Below are positions 5,287 through 19,907 of a stretch of 20,224 nt of DNA, piece after piece. The notes under the pieces were generated by a model. It ran no database searches. It worked only from the letters and a program-made list of their open reading frames with translations, and was not told the DNA's origin. Numbering within the stretch: position 1 is the first letter of the stretch; each line of letters opens with the position of its first letter. The position numbers and the translations under genes were made by a program. The DNA is from a virus: IMG/VR virus record IMGVR_UViG_3300020730_000025, positions 1-20,224 of that record; one strand, 5' to 3'.

Positions 5287-6179
5287 TATCCCTCTTTTCC
5301 CGTCTTAACGGCATTAGACTCAATACAAACTATGCTCGAAAACCAATCATTGCCGTATGTATCGCCATTATAAGTTACTTCTATAACCTTGTATTGACCA
5401 TCGTGTGTTATAGTTGGCGCTTTATTTACGGGATCTTTTTTTGATTCTTTAGTATTTTTTATTTTCGCAAACTCTACGTCTTTTTCGTCTATGATTACTA
5501 ATGCACCGATTTTTATCATAGGATTCAAAAGTGCTTTTGCCTTGATGCCGTCTGTGGATTGTTCCGCACCACCTACTAAACCACTTTTTGAGTTCAACAC
5601 TATTGATTGATTTTTAAGTGTGTTATCTTTCGAGATGATTTGAAGTTGGCCATCTTGAATAGACCAATCTTGCCCGTGAGCTTGTGCTGATTTTCTCATT
5701 ATGTGTTTAGCCTCGCCAAACATTACTTTACCGCGTGGTAACTTATTAGACTTTGTGTCTTTTTGGGTGTGACCTATTCCCATAGATTTCTGAACCACAT
5801 TAACGTGGTCTGCTTGTGAACTTCCAGCGGCTAAAGTTGTATTCACAAAGGCAAAGTTGTAGGCATTATCTCCATCACTTGCATTGATCTCTATATAAGT
5901 TTCAGTTCCGCCCTCGCGCCCTTTTTTAATCTGTGTGCATTGTCCGTCAAAGATTACACCAAAGTTATCTTTGTATCCCGCTTGTAAAGTGACTCTTTGA
6001 CCCTCTGCAACTAATAGATTTGCCGTATCTTCCGATAGATTATATACTTTGATTTGTGCCTGATTCGGCGTTTCTGTTTGACTGCGTTTTATTTCGAAAG
6101 TAATTCGCAGTTGTGATAAATCAAGTGATGCACTGCCCGCAGATATTACAAGCCCACAATGTCTAATCCATTGTTGCAT
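5286..6179 (-). CDS. Baseplate hub protein (Mu gp44 / P2 gpD-like)
   Basis: This 297-residue protein lies directly before the spike gene, where the gp27/gpD-type hub that joins tail tube to spike is normally encoded. The sequence supports this. An early LRITFEIKRS segment is followed by PNQAQIKVYNLSEDTANLL, then VTLQAGYKDNFGVIFDGQ, a pattern seen in many phage hub proteins with a gp27-like beta-barrel. Later parts contain an R.SAQAHGQDWSIQDGQLQI segment and a final VIEVTYNGDTYGNDWFS strand pair. Residues about 225-250 are a charged, Lys-rich insertion. No peptidoglycan hydrolase motif was seen. The start overlaps the preceding stop as TAATG. Confidence 0.8.
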   Translation of the reverse strand: MQQWIRHCGLVISAGSASLDLSQLRITFEIKRSQTETPNQAQIKVYNLSEDTANLLVAEGQRVTLQAGYKDNFGVIFDGQCTQIKKGREGGTETYIEINASDGDNAYNFAFVNTTLAAGSSQADHVNVVQKSMGIGHTQKDTKSNKLPRGKVMFGEAKHIMRKSAQAHGQDWSIQDGQLQIISKDNTLKNQSIVLNSKSGLVGGAEQSTDGIKAKALLNPMIKIGALVIIDEKDVEFAKIKNTKESKKDPVNKAPTITHDGQYKVIEVTYNGDTYGNDWFSSIVCIESNAVKTGKEG

Positions 6180-6481
6180 TACGGCACCACGAAATATATA
6201 TTAGATTGAGTGCCAAGATTATCATAAGTCGGCGGCAAATCATTTCCATCTGTTATGGCAAATAATTGAAAGCCAAAGTTTAAATAGGCAAAAGGCAAAA
6301 GCAAATCTAATCCTGTAGTGAGCGGTATGTTGCTGATTATTGGAATAAGATTTATGTCGGCTATATTTATAAACCATCCTTGAAGCTCATTATATTGAAG
6401 TGTCACATTATATGAAGTATCGTTTAGAATGACGTTAAATTGCTGATTGTCATTCGTTAAAGATATCGTGTAGATTGTCAT
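6179..6481 (-). CDS. DUF6983-like phage baseplate-region protein
   Basis: This 100-residue protein matches what I recall of the DUF6983 family. Its opening is ISLTNDNQQFNVILNDTSYN with beta strands, the centre has GWFINIAD, and IPLTTGLDLLLPFAYL is followed by the conserved C-terminal DLPPTYDNLGTQSNIYFV. The function is not established. In this type of myophage it is regularly found between the Dit-like gene and the hub gene, so a structural role at the tail-baseplate junction is likely (inference). The start overlaps the Dit-like TGA as ATGA, and the stop overlaps the hub start as TAATG. Confidence 0.78.
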   Translation of the reverse strand: MTIYTISLTNDNQQFNVILNDTSYNVTLQYNELQGWFINIADINLIPIISNIPLTTGLDLLLPFAYLNFGFQLFAITDGNDLPPTYDNLGTQSNIYFVVP

Positions 6482-7014
6482 AATATCCCTTTCGCTATGT
6501 TCGACATAAAAGACACATTTTTATTTTTAGCGTCTGTTACATCCTGCGCTGATTTTTGACCGCTCTTATCATTCTTCGCCGTTTTCTTAGAATTTTTATG
6601 CACTTGTTTTGGCGGAAAACTATCTATAGTTTGAACTGATACGATAATGACCTCTTGGAACTCTGCACTAATCTTTAGAATGTTTTCTGTCGTTTTATCT
6701 GTCGTCACACTCAAAGATTTAATCTGCATATTATTATAGATTCGTTTCATTGTTGTGACTGTAAATACGTCTGATGAAGATTGAAGCAAAAGTAAGTTTT
6801 GATATTTATTTGCCAATTCCGCCTGATTATCTCCGCTAAACATTAAGTCCATTTTTAGGGCAATAGGCTTTTTATATTTATGGTCGCTTATAGATGCGCC
6901 TTGTTGTACAGGATGACTTGTTATCTCATAGCTATCTGTTGTCTGTTCTTCAATAACTAAGTCGGGGATAATAGTGCCGATTAGTCGTCCGCTACGTGGG
7001 ATTATATTTGCCAT
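6478..7014 (-). CDS. Dit-like phage tail protein
   Basis: This 178-residue protein resembles the Dit-like N-terminal domain of phage tail proteins. Residues about 14-50 contain IIPDLVIEEQTTDSYEITSH, PVQQGASISDHKYKKP, and then IALKMDLMFS; the E..T..YEIT.HPV..G..ISDH pattern is the recognisable part. Such proteins probably form a ring between the tube end and the hub (inference). The last 45 residues are a Lys/Asn/Ser-rich, probably disordered tail (KKTAKNDKSGQKSAQ) with no strong similarity I can name. The gene sits directly after the tape measure gene, where a distal tail component is expected. TAATG overlap at its start and ATGA at its end. Confidence 0.8.
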   Translation of the reverse strand: MANIIPRSGRLIGTIIPDLVIEEQTTDSYEITSHPVQQGASISDHKYKKPIALKMDLMFSGDNQAELANKYQNLLLLQSSSDVFTVTTMKRIYNNMQIKSLSVTTDKTTENILKISAEFQEVIIVSVQTIDSFPPKQVHKNSKKTAKNDKSGQKSAQDVTDAKNKNVSFMSNIAKGIL

Positions 7015-8645
7015 TATCTCGCCCTCGCTGTTGCGTTACGTGTTAGATTCTGATTCACATTTGATTGATGTGTTGCTACCGCCTGAGCTGTTGCTTGTGG
7101 ATTAGCATTACCGTGAACATGTATGACTGTTTGTTGATTCACGCTTGACCCCGTACTAGCATCGCTCGGTTTTAATACAGTTGAGTTACTTCCAAAGAAG
7201 CCAGATACTGCACTACCCATCTTTGATATTTTATCAAAGCTTTTACCTACTGATGAGAACAGACCCGTAAAAAAGTCTTTGACTACTTTCCAGTGCTTCA
7301 CAAGTTCATACCCCGCTACGCCTAGAGCCGCAATAGCAATTATTATCAACCCAATAGGATTAGCAGATAAGATAAAGTTTAAAGCCATTTGAGCGGTACG
7401 CCATACGGTCGTAAACATTGTTACCATTTTAATTGCAACTCCATAAACCATCATTGCGCCTTTTACCGCCAGCACTGCACCCGCTACATAGCCGAGAACT
7501 TTAACAACTTCCAAAGCCCCCTGCGCAAAGTCACTATTCCAATTTATCAGGGAATCGCCGCCCTCTTTAAAGGTTAGAAAGTCATCATATAGAGCAAGTA
7601 TTGCAACACTTAACAAAATGATTCTTCCGATTGGAGAAGATAGAAAAACTTTATTTAGTAGTTGCCACCCAACAACGAGACCGCCTACTATTCCGATAAG
7701 CCCATCCGTCTTTTCGTTTACTTCCAAGAAAGTGTTAATGAGCATTTTAGCAAGGTCTATTACAACCTTAATGCCTCTAGCACCAAGTCTTACAAATCCG
7801 TCGGCAAGATTTAAAATCATTGTTAGCAGTGGCTTGATAAATGCTTCTATCTTCGGGGCTAATTCCATAACCTCGTTACGCATATCGTGAATAGTAGAAG
7901 TAATCTTCTCAATCGCTTCTCTTATTTTCGGCATAAGATAAACCGCTATCGCCTCTTTTATTTTATCAAAGAGAGTTTTGAAAAGATTGATTTCCATCCG
8001 CATATCTTTCCAAGATGCGCTAAAAGCTTTTGACTCTGCTATTGATTTATCAAGGTTAAAACCTGCTGCTACATCAATCTTAGAAAGTTCTCCGCCGATA
8101 TATTTTGTTTTTTCCAAAGAGGCGTTAAACATTAGAAGCATTTTAGGGTCAAGTCCTAAACGCTCCATAACTCTAAGCTGTTCCCCTCTTCCCATTCCTT
8201 GCATTTTTACTTGTAAGTCGGACATTACGTCCATGGTTCCACGCACTTTGCCATTTGCATCAGTTACAGAAATACCAAGTTTCTCAAAGATTACTTTAGA
8301 ACGTCCGATACCCATTCCCGCATCTTCTACGGCTCTTGACATTGATTTAAGTGATTCTGTGGCAGTCTCTTCGCTAATGCCCATTACTCCAGCAGTGTCT
8401 ATGAACCCATCCACTGCTTCCGCTGTTGTATTAAGCTGTTTCGCAAGTAAATCTAATTGCTTATATTGGTTTGCTACCTCTTGAACTGTGTGAACGATCT
8501 CGCCAGCCATTGCGGTAACGGCTACACCAAAAGCCATTACACCCGCCGAAGCTTTTATTATGGATGAGTTGAAATTGTTAAGCGAGTTTTCATCTATGTT
8601 AAAACCAAGCTTAACTAAAAACTCTTTTAAAACTTCTGTCTCCAT
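7014..8645 (-). CDS. Tail tape measure protein
   Basis: This 543-residue protein is the likely tape measure. It lies after the chaperone pair and before the distal tail genes. It opens with METEVLKEFLVKLGFNIDEN and a long helix region, and has several hydrophobic segments: near residues 35-48, about 318-357 (including IGRIILLSVAILALY), about 385-408 and about 430-450 (PIGLIIIAIAALGVAGYEL). The C-terminus is Asn/Gln/Ala/Ser-rich. Tape measure length tracks tail length at roughly 0.15 nm per residue, which would suggest a short tail of about 80 nm (inference from the known rule). The ATG at 8643-8645 has a GGGAG 7 bases upstream, lying across the end of the chaperone frame. No lytic domain was recognised. 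Confidence 0.85.
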   Translation of the reverse strand: METEVLKEFLVKLGFNIDENSLNNFNSSIIKASAGVMAFGVAVTAMAGEIVHTVQEVANQYKQLDLLAKQLNTTAEAVDGFIDTAGVMGISEETATESLKSMSRAVEDAGMGIGRSKVIFEKLGISVTDANGKVRGTMDVMSDLQVKMQGMGRGEQLRVMERLGLDPKMLLMFNASLEKTKYIGGELSKIDVAAGFNLDKSIAESKAFSASWKDMRMEINLFKTLFDKIKEAIAVYLMPKIREAIEKITSTIHDMRNEVMELAPKIEAFIKPLLTMILNLADGFVRLGARGIKVVIDLAKMLINTFLEVNEKTDGLIGIVGGLVVGWQLLNKVFLSSPIGRIILLSVAILALYDDFLTFKEGGDSLINWNSDFAQGALEVVKVLGYVAGAVLAVKGAMMVYGVAIKMVTMFTTVWRTAQMALNFILSANPIGLIIIAIAALGVAGYELVKHWKVVKDFFTGLFSSVGKSFDKISKMGSAVSGFFGSNSTVLKPSDASTGSSVNQQTVIHVHGNANPQATAQAVATHQSNVNQNLTRNATARAR

Positions 8646-17363: not shown

Positions 17364-18563
17364 CTAAATTATATTTAACCATACATTTATGCCACCTCGA
17401 GTTAATGGTTCTAAGGCGTATCTAATTGCGTCAATCCCGTGATTATTAGCGTCGATCAATATTGGTGTAATATCCCCACTCAATTTATCGATCTTATATG
17501 AATAACTTCCAAATTCTTTGATTAAGTTTGTACATTTTGGATTAATGACGATATCAAAAGATCTCATAAATTGTATCCCATCCTCTACGCTTCCCTTACC
17601 TTTGTGCACTCCTTCACAAAATGGATATCCATTATTTTTTAAATAACTTATCGTCTCAGGTCGTGCGCTATCACATCGAATTACTTTTCTTCTCGCTTCG
17701 ATATCTGCCTTATCTAATAGATAGTGCAGATCATTTATTTCTGTCTCTATTCCATACGCTTCATTTTCAATATATAGAATTGTCTCATGTACCCAGACTT
17801 TTGTAACCGAGTTTGGGTCTTGACTAAACCCGAAGTCCATACCGAGATAAGAGTTCTGCCATCCGAAAGTATCAAGCTCCGCGATTCTATATCTATCCTT
17901 AAACACCAAAGCCTCAGATCGTTTTTGGTATTCTCCGAGCCATACGTTGTTAAATGTGTCTGGATTGGTTCTAAGATGCCTTTCTGCTTCGTCTAGAGTT
18001 GTTTGCGTTATGAAAGGGTTTTGCTTATAGTTTACGAATGCACAAATAGAATTTTTATGCTCTTCTTTAAAAATCTGCTCAACTGGATCAGTTTCTAATT
18101 TAGGGTTCCATGAAAACCATATCTCCGAATTTTCAGCCCTTATCGTTGGAAGCAATAGCTCCATAGAGTGAGCGGATATACTTTGTGCTTCCTCTACCCA
18201 AGCAAACCCAAAACCCTCTAAGGATTTTATAGAATCGGCGGTATGATCTTGCATCCCTTGAAATATCATAATCCCTTCGCCGTCTTTTCTCCGTATCTCT
18301 GTTTCTGTTATATCGAATAAGTGAGATACATTCATTTTTCTTATTTTTGATAGTACAAGTTTTTTAGCAGAGAATTTGAGAGATTTTTGTATTTCACGAA
18401 TACATACAAATTGCGCATCTCTGTCGTATACCATTGTTTCTACGGCTAATTCTGCAAAGAAGTGAGATTTACCTGAGCCCCTCCCGCCTTTTGCGCCCTT
18501 ATAGCGTCTAGGTTCTAAAAGAGGTATAGCCCATCTTGGTGTTAGTATTTCTAAATCATACAT
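17364..18563 (-). CDS. terL: Terminase large subunit
   Basis: This 399-residue protein is the DNA packaging ATPase-nuclease. Numbered from the chosen ATG, the Walker A motif GGRGSGKS is at 26-33, Walker B FAWVEEAQ at 120-127 and the coupling motif WFSWNP at 149-154. The C-terminal nuclease has YLGMDFGFSQDP (first metal-binding Asp), CDSARPETI and HGIDAIRYAL (further Asp residues). It belongs to the PBSX-type branch by overall pattern. The frame is open to a TTG at 18575, with ATGs at 18572 and 18563; I chose 18563 because MYDLEILTPRWAIPLLEP fits the family start, leaving an 8-base overlap with the small subunit gene. No clear ribosome binding site decides this, so coupling is likely. Confidence 0.92.
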   Translation of the reverse strand: MYDLEILTPRWAIPLLEPRRYKGAKGGRGSGKSHFFAELAVETMVYDRDAQFVCIREIQKSLKFSAKKLVLSKIRKMNVSHLFDITETEIRRKDGEGIMIFQGMQDHTADSIKSLEGFGFAWVEEAQSISAHSMELLLPTIRAENSEIWFSWNPKLETDPVEQIFKEEHKNSICAFVNYKQNPFITQTTLDEAERHLRTNPDTFNNVWLGEYQKRSEALVFKDRYRIAELDTFGWQNSYLGMDFGFSQDPNSVTKVWVHETILYIENEAYGIETEINDLHYLLDKADIEARRKVIRCDSARPETISYLKNNGYPFCEGVHKGKGSVEDGIQFMRSFDIVINPKCTNLIKEFGSYSYKIDKLSGDITPILIDANNHGIDAIRYALEPLTRGGINVWLNII

Positions 18564-19104
18564 CAACCACATCAATATCGATGATACGCCTTGTGATTTG
18601 CATTGGTGTTGTAGCTATCGCGGCAGTGCTTACGTTTACGTCTCCATTCTTTGCAAACTGTTCTATAACTCCAAGTGACTGCCCTGCTTTGTGGATTGCA
18701 TTTTGGCATTGTATAAAATCAGACGCACCTAGCCCTATCTCTTCAAAGTGTTGCACTCCATCGCCCACATTAATCTTTTCTACTTTTGTGTTATTACTGA
18801 GATATTCAGTAATACGAACTAAATTTAATTGACTTGCATTAGTAACTAACTGATTATTATAAATCTCCTCTTGGGCAACAAGTACAATTGCGCCCATTTC
18901 TTCAGGAGGTAAAAGAGCTTTTGCCGTAAGCACGGTAATTTGAGCGTCTACAATATGCCCATTTTTTTGGTCTATGCCCTTTGTTAAGTTACCTACTGTT
19001 CCCTTTGATGCCCCATATTTATTTACTAAGTCTCTTTGAGAGTATCGACCGGTTTTCCAGTCTGCAATAAGATTCTTTTTATCTTGCTCGGATAGTTTAG
19101 CCAT
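18556..19104 (-). CDS. terS: Terminase small subunit (HTH DNA-binding)
   Basis: This 182-residue protein lies immediately before the large subunit and overlaps it by 8 bases, the usual place of the small terminase. Its N-terminus holds a helix-turn-helix: YSQRDLVNKYGASKGTVGNL at residues 21-40. This would recognise the packaging start site. The remaining part is helical (LTAKALLPPEEMGAIVLVAQ and later) and would form the oligomeric ring. The C-terminus ends in an ITRRIIDIDVVDV strand, suitable for contact with the large subunit (inference). The frame is open to 19119, but the ATG at 19102-19104, one base after the preceding TAA, gives a MAKL start like the neighbour and was chosen. Assignment is by position and HTH; I cannot place it in a specific Pfam terminase family. 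Confidence 0.8.
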   Translation of the reverse strand: MAKLSEQDKKNLIADWKTGRYSQRDLVNKYGASKGTVGNLTKGIDQKNGHIVDAQITVLTAKALLPPEEMGAIVLVAQEEIYNNQLVTNASQLNLVRITEYLSNNTKVEKINVGDGVQHFEEIGLGASDFIQCQNAIHKAGQSLGVIEQFAKNGDVNVSTAAIATTPMQITRRIIDIDVVDV

Positions 19105-19105
19105 A

Positions 19106-19744
19106 TTAAAAACTCTCAATCTTTTGCTTTATTTCTTGCATTATAGATTCTGTAACGCAAAACCACTCGCTATTAAAATTATATTCTGAAAAGTGATTGT
19201 GCATATCTCTTTCAATAGTATAAGCATTTTTAAAATATCTACTATACAATAATATCAAATAAAATGGGTTTCCAGTCTGTAAATTATTAAGTCTTAACCC
19301 TATGTCTGTAGCTACCCCTATTTTTAAAAATATATCATTTTGGTTTTTAAAATAGATTAAATACACACTGCCATCAGGTCTAGTGCCTCTTCTATTTATT
19401 GCAGTTTTATGATTACCAGAAACTATTTTATTAACTGACCCTAATGATACATTATTTTTTATAGCCAATGCTCTTTGTGATATTCCTTTTTCAAAATCTT
19501 CAATAATTTTATTTTTCATATGTTCAGTTATTTTTGACACGTGTATCCTTTTTTTTACGGATATTATATCTATTTTTGAACGCTTAGTCAAGTGTTCATT
19601 TGAAGCATCTACTCCTTTTGTCAACCCGCTTATTGTTCCTACTGATACATCGTGCTTCTTCGCTAACTGTCTTTGACTATATTGCCCCGTCTTATAATCA
19701 GCAATTATTAACAATTTATCATTATAAGATAACAGTTTAGCCAT
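19106..19744 (-). CDS. HTH-HTH-GIY-YIG (T5orf172-like) nuclease, terminase-linked
   Basis: This 212-residue protein combines two helix-turn-helix units with a GIY-YIG-type nuclease domain. The first unit (residues about 1-50, HTH YSQRQLAKKHDVSVGTISGL) aligns with the adjacent small terminase N-terminus at 29 of 51 positions by hand. The second (about 72-112) repeats the pattern (ISQRALAIKNNVSLGSVNKI). Residues about 126-205 resemble the T5orf172/MUG113 branch: VYLIYF, KIGVATDIGLRLNNLQTGNP, then E178 in ERDMH and SEWF. Candidate catalytic residues are Tyr128, Arg151 and Glu178 (inference). The nuclease part is notably AT-rich. It may be a free-standing homing-type endonuclease that uses a terminase-like DNA reader, or a packaging helper. 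Its ATG overlaps the zinc ribbon gene by 8 bases. Confidence 0.78.
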   Translation of the reverse strand: MAKLLSYNDKLLIIADYKTGQYSQRQLAKKHDVSVGTISGLTKGVDASNEHLTKRSKIDIISVKKRIHVSKITEHMKNKIIEDFEKGISQRALAIKNNVSLGSVNKIVSGNHKTAINRRGTRPDGSVYLIYFKNQNDIFLKIGVATDIGLRLNNLQTGNPFYLILLYSRYFKNAYTIERDMHNHFSEYNFNSEWFCVTESIMQEIKQKIESF

Positions 19745-19907
19745 CTTGCGATTTTATCCCGTCATTGGTTTTAATCATTCCGATCTCGTATTTTCTTTCG
19801 AGTATATTCTCGCATATCTCGCAATGCTCAATTCTTGAACTTTCACTCATTGGTTTGTCTATCTCTATTGTATTGTCACAGTGCGGACATTTGTATAAAT
19901 AAATCAT
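19737..19907 (-). CDS. Small FmdB-like zinc ribbon protein
   Basis: This 56-residue protein starts MIYLYKCPHCDNTIEIDKPM and has two Cys pairs, C7-x-x-C10 and C29-x-x-C32, which should bind one zinc. The Y.Y.C..C pattern near the N-terminus resembles FmdB-type regulatory zinc ribbons. The rest is a short charged tail (ERKYEIGMIKTNDG). Coding is supported by an ATGA overlap with the preceding gene's TGA and an 8-base overlap with the following nuclease gene. Function is unknown; small zinc ribbons of this type occur in many phages and may bind nucleic acids or proteins (inference). Confidence 0.72.
   Translation of the reverse strand: MIYLYKCPHCDNTIEIDKPMSESSRIEHCEICENILERKYEIGMIKTNDGIKSQDG

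Follow-up and report, generated by a model that had tools for sequence, protein, structure and literature searches.

A terminase gene is present in 35% of the neighbourhoods of T5orf172 genes, whose products carry repeated, exchangeable DNA-binding beads, which in the survey were mostly zinc-finger beads (PMC10448857). Odn (origin-directed nuclease, ICP1 gp88) combines T5orf172 with a RepA_N domain resembling that of a satellite's initiator; it binds and cuts the satellite origin, and domestication of a homing nuclease has been proposed as its source (PMC8263062, PMC10448857). I-TevI is described as nuclease and repressor at once (discussed in PMC10448857), and HK97 gp74, an HNH protein, stimulates cos cleavage in vitro (PMC11331095). 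In many structures of small terminases (TerS) the helix-turn-helix (HTH) is presumed to be the domain that binds DNA, and in lambda and SF6 it is sufficient for binding (PMC11331095); an SF6 study cited there has the words "sequence-independent interactions" in its title.

The locus described here lies in a window of 20,224 nucleotides, the whole stretch of viral DNA that was analysed (IMG/VR record IMGVR_UViG_3300020730_000025). It encodes a protein that joins a T5orf172 nuclease domain to a DNA-binding domain of TerS ancestry. By analogy with Odn we somewhat favour the reading that this domain, HTH1, directs the cutter to packaging-site DNA, with homing or exclusion as the result, and we infer the DNA target, the cleavage and the homing or exclusion from the comparisons given below.

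Architecture of the nuclease and its neighbours

Profile searches show an intact T5orf172/MUG113 domain of the GIY-YIG superfamily at the C-terminus of the 212-aa protein, which we regard as a predicted nuclease (Table 1). The T5orf172 profile matched residues 126-209 (E=6e-11; 43.2 bits against a curated cut-off of 20) and the MUG113 profile residues 140-208 (E=9e-14; 52.2 bits against 22.3). An initial annotation made from the letters alone had proposed a GIY-YIG/T5orf172-like domain here and had named a C-terminal part that is not GIY-YIG as the result that would speak against it; both profiles found the domain. In a pattern-biased sample of 68 aligned relatives, picked by catalytic motif from among the matches listed, the catalytic Tyr, Arg and Glu (Y128, R151 and E178) are invariant. 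The equivalents of the GIY-YIG active site (Y128, K141-I-G143, R151 and E178) are conserved together with E193-W194, and the position of the YIG Tyr is a Lys in this protein as in all 68. In an AlphaFold2 model the nuclease domain has a pLDDT of about 95 and HTH1 one of about 80; among viral folds the model matched T5orf172 and GIY-YIG proteins best, and fold searches of the PDB gave no significant match.

Table 1. Positions of the features of the nuclease and terminase region in the window.
Feature	Position	Strand	Remarks
Large terminase TerL	17364..18575	(-)	Terminase_3 and RNase H-like nuclease domains, complete; profile match
Small terminase TerS, 182 aa	18556..19104	(-)	N-terminal HTH 18934-19104; family of about 35 proteins upstream of TerL
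ATGGCTAAACT at terS start	19094..19104	(-)	
Chimeric nuclease gene	19106..19744	(-)	212 aa, ATG start
Predicted T5orf172/MUG113 nuclease domain	19118..19369	(-)	Residues 126-209; conserved Y128, K141, G143, R151, E178, H182, E193, W194
HTH2, generic HTH, possibly of homing-endonuclease type	19394..19540	(-)	Residues 69-117
HTH1, TerS-family N-terminal domain, putatively DNA-binding	19574..19744	(-)	Residues 1-57
ATGGCTAAACT at nuclease start	19734..19744	(-)	Same letters as terS start
Small zinc-ribbon protein	19737..19907	(-)	Directly before terS in contigs L003 and L012

At its N-terminus the protein resembles the adjacent TerS, and the 29 identities that had been counted over the first 51 residues are exact. 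BLASTP aligned the two with 31 of 64 identical residues (E=6e-15), and the local alignment scored 139, where 2000 shuffles reached 50 at most (z=24). The likeness stops near residue 64, and the oligomerisation region and core that follow the HTH in TerS are absent. A profile of the TerS N-terminus, built without the TerS of the window phage and without its two near relatives, scored HTH1 at 73.2 bits, close to the approximately 80 bits of held-out real TerS, and the best non-TerS protein among 13,115 ORFs at 34.8 bits; the sole match above 34 bits in 398 bacterial genomes was itself a TerS. Because of this gap, HTH1 is taken to be a TerS domain by ancestry. A similarity shared by many unrelated regulators, which would have made the resemblance non-specific, is thereby rejected for HTH1 (73 against 35 bits) and does hold for HTH2.

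The initial annotation had described HTH2 as a second, more diverged copy of the same HTH. That a second HTH exists was borne out, since a segment at residues 71-114 scores 28.3 bits with the TerS profile and resembles HTH1 with z=8.6; its derivation from TerS was not, the score being at background level when set against the C-terminal HTH of an HNH endonuclease (35 bits) and unrelated genome proteins (28-34 bits). HTH2 therefore probably represents a generic HTH of homing endonucleases rather than another copy from TerS. The HNH endonuclease, recognised as such by eye, is the best-scoring non-TerS protein (L078:2510-3211; 34.8 bits), and HTH2 may stem from an HTH like the one at its C-terminus, as found in homing endonucleases.

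The nuclease gene is nearly coupled to terS, its end lying one base ahead of the terS ATG (19104), and it overlaps the zinc-ribbon stop by 8 nt. Its GC content is 28.6%, as against 33-42% in neighbouring genes. The part that codes for HTH1 contains an imperfect palindrome (19690-19729) with 20-nt arms that are 80% complementary and no spacer, which may be a chance product of AT-rich DNA. A 17-nt direct repeat (19051-19067 and 19266-19282, 88% identical, about the level expected by chance) falls in the coding regions of the TerS HTH and of the LQTGNP motif of the nuclease. Could the protein be a transcriptional regulator, with HTHs that bind an operator of the operon and a nuclease domain that is regulatory or weak? 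The double role of I-TevI (discussed in PMC10448857) and the palindrome speak for it. We consider it improbable, since all the conserved catalytic positions are kept and the palindrome is weak and lies inside AT-rich coding sequence.

About 35 distinct proteins, 150-190 aa long, were recovered from IMG/VR by scanning with degenerate patterns of the HTH1 motif. For nearly all of those with enough flanking sequence, the next ORF downstream is about 400-570 aa long; 21 of 28 such ORFs match one PHROG large-terminase family and others match further large-terminase families. Because of these adjoining ORFs the approximately 35 proteins are small terminases. The TerS of the window is assigned to the same function from gene order, the TerL neighbours and a modelled helical architecture, which comprises an N-terminal HTH, a long helical core and a beta hairpin and whose best PDB matches, below significance, are small terminases. 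It had no significant match in Pfam, PHROG or NCBIfam; tblastn with it and with the TerS of contig L012 found nothing among 50,697 phage records, and the family is apparently an unnamed one. No iteron-like TerS site was found, nor any Rfam match around terS. The TerL has its own full-length Terminase_3C nuclease domain; its best matches, at 38-48% identity, are spread over various hosts, and it is 37% identical to the TerL of contig L004. The TerS of the window is 75% identical to that of contig L003 (span 6001-7856) and the two TerLs are unrelated (BLASTP E=0.17), so terminase subunits have passed from phage to phage.

Origin of HTH1 and the insertion site

Over the 57 residues of the HTH1 region, the window's own TerS and that of L003 are identical at 56 positions, whereas HTH1 and the window's own TerS agree at 29 and HTH1 and the TerS of L012 at 32; at the DNA level HTH1 is 62% identical to the neighbouring terS and 68% to that of L012. 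A tree forcing HTH1 together with its neighbour was rejected (AU p=0.011) and one grouping it with the L012 TerS was tolerated (AU p=0.27), in tests on 57 columns that place HTH1 only weakly within the TerS family. These values reject a recent duplication of the neighbouring terS. They also correct the view that HTH1 is a copy of the adjacent TerS, as it is nearer a different allele; the donor was thus another allele of the TerS family, or else the capture is old.

In the window the nuclease gene sits between the zinc-ribbon gene and terS; in contigs L003 and L012 the zinc-ribbon gene runs straight into terS and the nuclease is absent. Comparison of related phages with and without the gene, which had been proposed as a check, did thus find nuclease-free relatives at this very junction, and the gene is present or absent among relatives at one site, as is characteristic of homing endonucleases. 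None of the related TerS phages L003, L004 and L012 has this nuclease gene beside terS, and no T5orf172 ORF was found beside other TerS loci in the flanking stretch present for each. The nuclease gene and terS both begin with ATGGCTAAACT, and this shared start would fit a history in which the 5′ end of a terS allele became joined to a nuclease gene and a complete terS was restored downstream. A fusion of exactly this kind was seen at one locus: direct searches of IMG/VR, INPHARED and plasmids did not find an identical one, nor was there any among the 67 other T5orf172 proteins aligned, a pattern-biased sample of the matches listed. No earlier description of a TerS-HTH/T5orf172 fusion was found in the open-access literature searched.

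The same comparison weighs on a role as packaging cofactor, in which genome cleavage by TerS and TerL at the packaging site would be aided by the protein, much as HK97 gp74 stimulates cleavage at cos. Its position beside terS, the near coupling and the shared type of DNA-binding domain, together with the in vitro stimulation of cos cleavage by gp74 (PMC11331095), would suit such a role. Yet the relatives do without the gene, which is not co-conserved with the terminase, TerL brings a nuclease domain of its own, the nuclease protein has no TerS oligomerisation region, and HTH1 is unlike the HTH of its would-be partner. We consider this role very improbable.

Nucleases that share a domain with a neighbour

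We compared the non-nuclease part of T5orf172 proteins with every other ORF of their own locus, for 65 proteins from viral contigs, phages, plasmids and bacterial genomes in which that part measures 40 residues or more. Domain sharing was detected in four of the 65 (the window, L034, L115 and L161) and in none in three control rounds against other loci (Fisher p 0.004 with the window and 0.015 without it; 0.06 without the window when L115 and L161 are treated as a single event). Each of the four neighbours concerned is expected to recognise a specific cis site.

Two of these cases are analogues of the domain order sought next to terminases, with HTHs of the unrelated Sf6-terminase type instead. 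The homologous T5orf172 proteins of contigs L115 and L161 carry two to three such HTHs. On contig L115, terS (1050-1529) is followed by the nuclease (1507-2517), then by a 326-aa ORF and, from 3595 onwards, by an ORF that looks like terL; at L161:870-2115 the nuclease likewise adjoins terS and overlaps its end. The ORFs adjoining the nuclease match PHROG small terminases, as do the HTHs of the nucleases, and residues 28-87 of the L115 nuclease are 35% identical to residues 29-88 of the L161 TerS (E=3e-14), with further repeats matching too. They represent an independent chimera of TerS domain and nuclease beside a terS of Sf6 type. A search with the L115 nuclease in 398 genomes gave no match. 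In the remaining case, an unrelated locus on a bacterial genome contig (L034:593-2064, on the same contig as L216:3073-4544), a T5orf172 nuclease lies beside a lambda-O-like replication initiator (Phage_rep_O 4e-10); the start of the nuclease and the N-terminus of this overlapping downstream initiator share 37% identity over 78 alignment columns. The design is Odn-like, with the nuclease beside its own initiator gene.

Unrelated viruses have thus built the same kind of hybrid beside genes for packaging or replication, and cutters of this kind may therefore be directed at the sites where rival viruses start to package or copy their DNA. If targeting by borrowed domains is a rule, Odn would be one instance of it. 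An ordinary T5orf172 homing endonuclease would require no such aim: HTH1 would be a mere bead, its TerS ancestry an accident of insertion in terS, and the reading of the packaging site would have been lost. The expected site specificity of the donor in all four cases and the 73 bits that HTH1 still scores as a TerS domain make us think this rather unlikely, even though T5orf172 genes with repeated, exchangeable beads are common beside terminases (PMC10448857) and HTH1 has diverged from the neighbouring TerS (29/57).

A possible cutter of packaging-site DNA

We prefer the reading of a nuclease directed by HTH1 because the T5orf172 and MUG113 matches exceed their cut-offs with the catalytic Y, R and E kept, because HTH1 is specific to TerS, because no nuclease gene separates the zinc-ribbon gene from terS in L003 and L012 and the GC content of the one in the window stands apart, because there are independent analogues in L115/L161 and L034 (4/65 against none in the controls), and because Odn provides a precedent, cutting the very origin that the RepA_N domain it has borrowed recognises (PMC8263062). 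The initial annotation had offered a selfish element or a packaging cofactor; the independent analogues favour the selfish, targeting part of this proposal and the relatives without the gene disfavour the cofactor.

A free-standing, homing-type T5orf172 endonuclease would have captured its front end from a TerS of the same family, not recently from the adjacent allele. Pac sites are frequently located within terS or close to it, and the lambda origin lies inside O. HTH1 would aim the cutter at the packaging-site DNA bound by such a TerS, in or near terS, and the nuclease would nick or cut this region in co-infecting phages or satellites that have a matching site and no copy of the gene. Repair from the DNA of the carrier would then spread the nuclease gene together with the terS locus (homing), and rivals that are not copied would lose packageable genomes (exclusion, as with Odn). 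A cut placed inside or beside the insertion site in gene-less relatives is what homing requires, and it would also spoil the rivals' packaging or replication. The difference between HTH1 and the adjacent allele would help to spare the carrier itself. A lone HTH from an oligomeric TerS may bind weakly or with no sequence preference, which counts against targeting, as do the single locus of the exact fusion and the p of 0.06 for recurrence when L115 and L161 are merged and the window is left out.

Should targeting by HTH1 prove true, packaging sites would stand beside replication origins as targets of counter-weapons encoded by phages, and the target of such a nuclease could be predicted from the domain it has borrowed. 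A map of its cuts would be a handle on where an uncharacterised TerS family binds. Spreading of the terS locus by a nuclease would help to explain terminase mosaicism, of which the 75% identical TerS with unrelated TerLs are an example. The neighbour-domain test is simple and could reveal more site-directed nucleases in phage genomes.

Among known systems, phage small terminases have the N-terminal HTH family of HTH1, followed by a helical oligomerisation core and C-terminus where the nuclease has HTH2 and the nuclease domain. HNH proteins of the HK97 gp74 type likewise connect a nuclease gene with the terminase, but have another nuclease fold and no known TerS domain, and the gene of the window is absent beside terS in relatives. 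Free-standing T5orf172 homing endonucleases share the nuclease family, the repeated beads and the location next to terminases (PMC10448857); 87% of those surveyed have CapR/DUF723/DUF4397 zinc fingers, and the survey text consulted mentions no TerS-type HTH. In Odn the borrowed domain is RepA_N, from replication, and the donor is a satellite, whereas the predicted nuclease of the window has a domain of TerS type, from packaging, and its gene lies beside the terS of its own phage. With Odn and ICP1 gp5 (PMC8263062, PMC10448857) it shares the central design, a T5orf172 nuclease joined to a DNA-binding domain homologous to that of a binder of a vital cis site.
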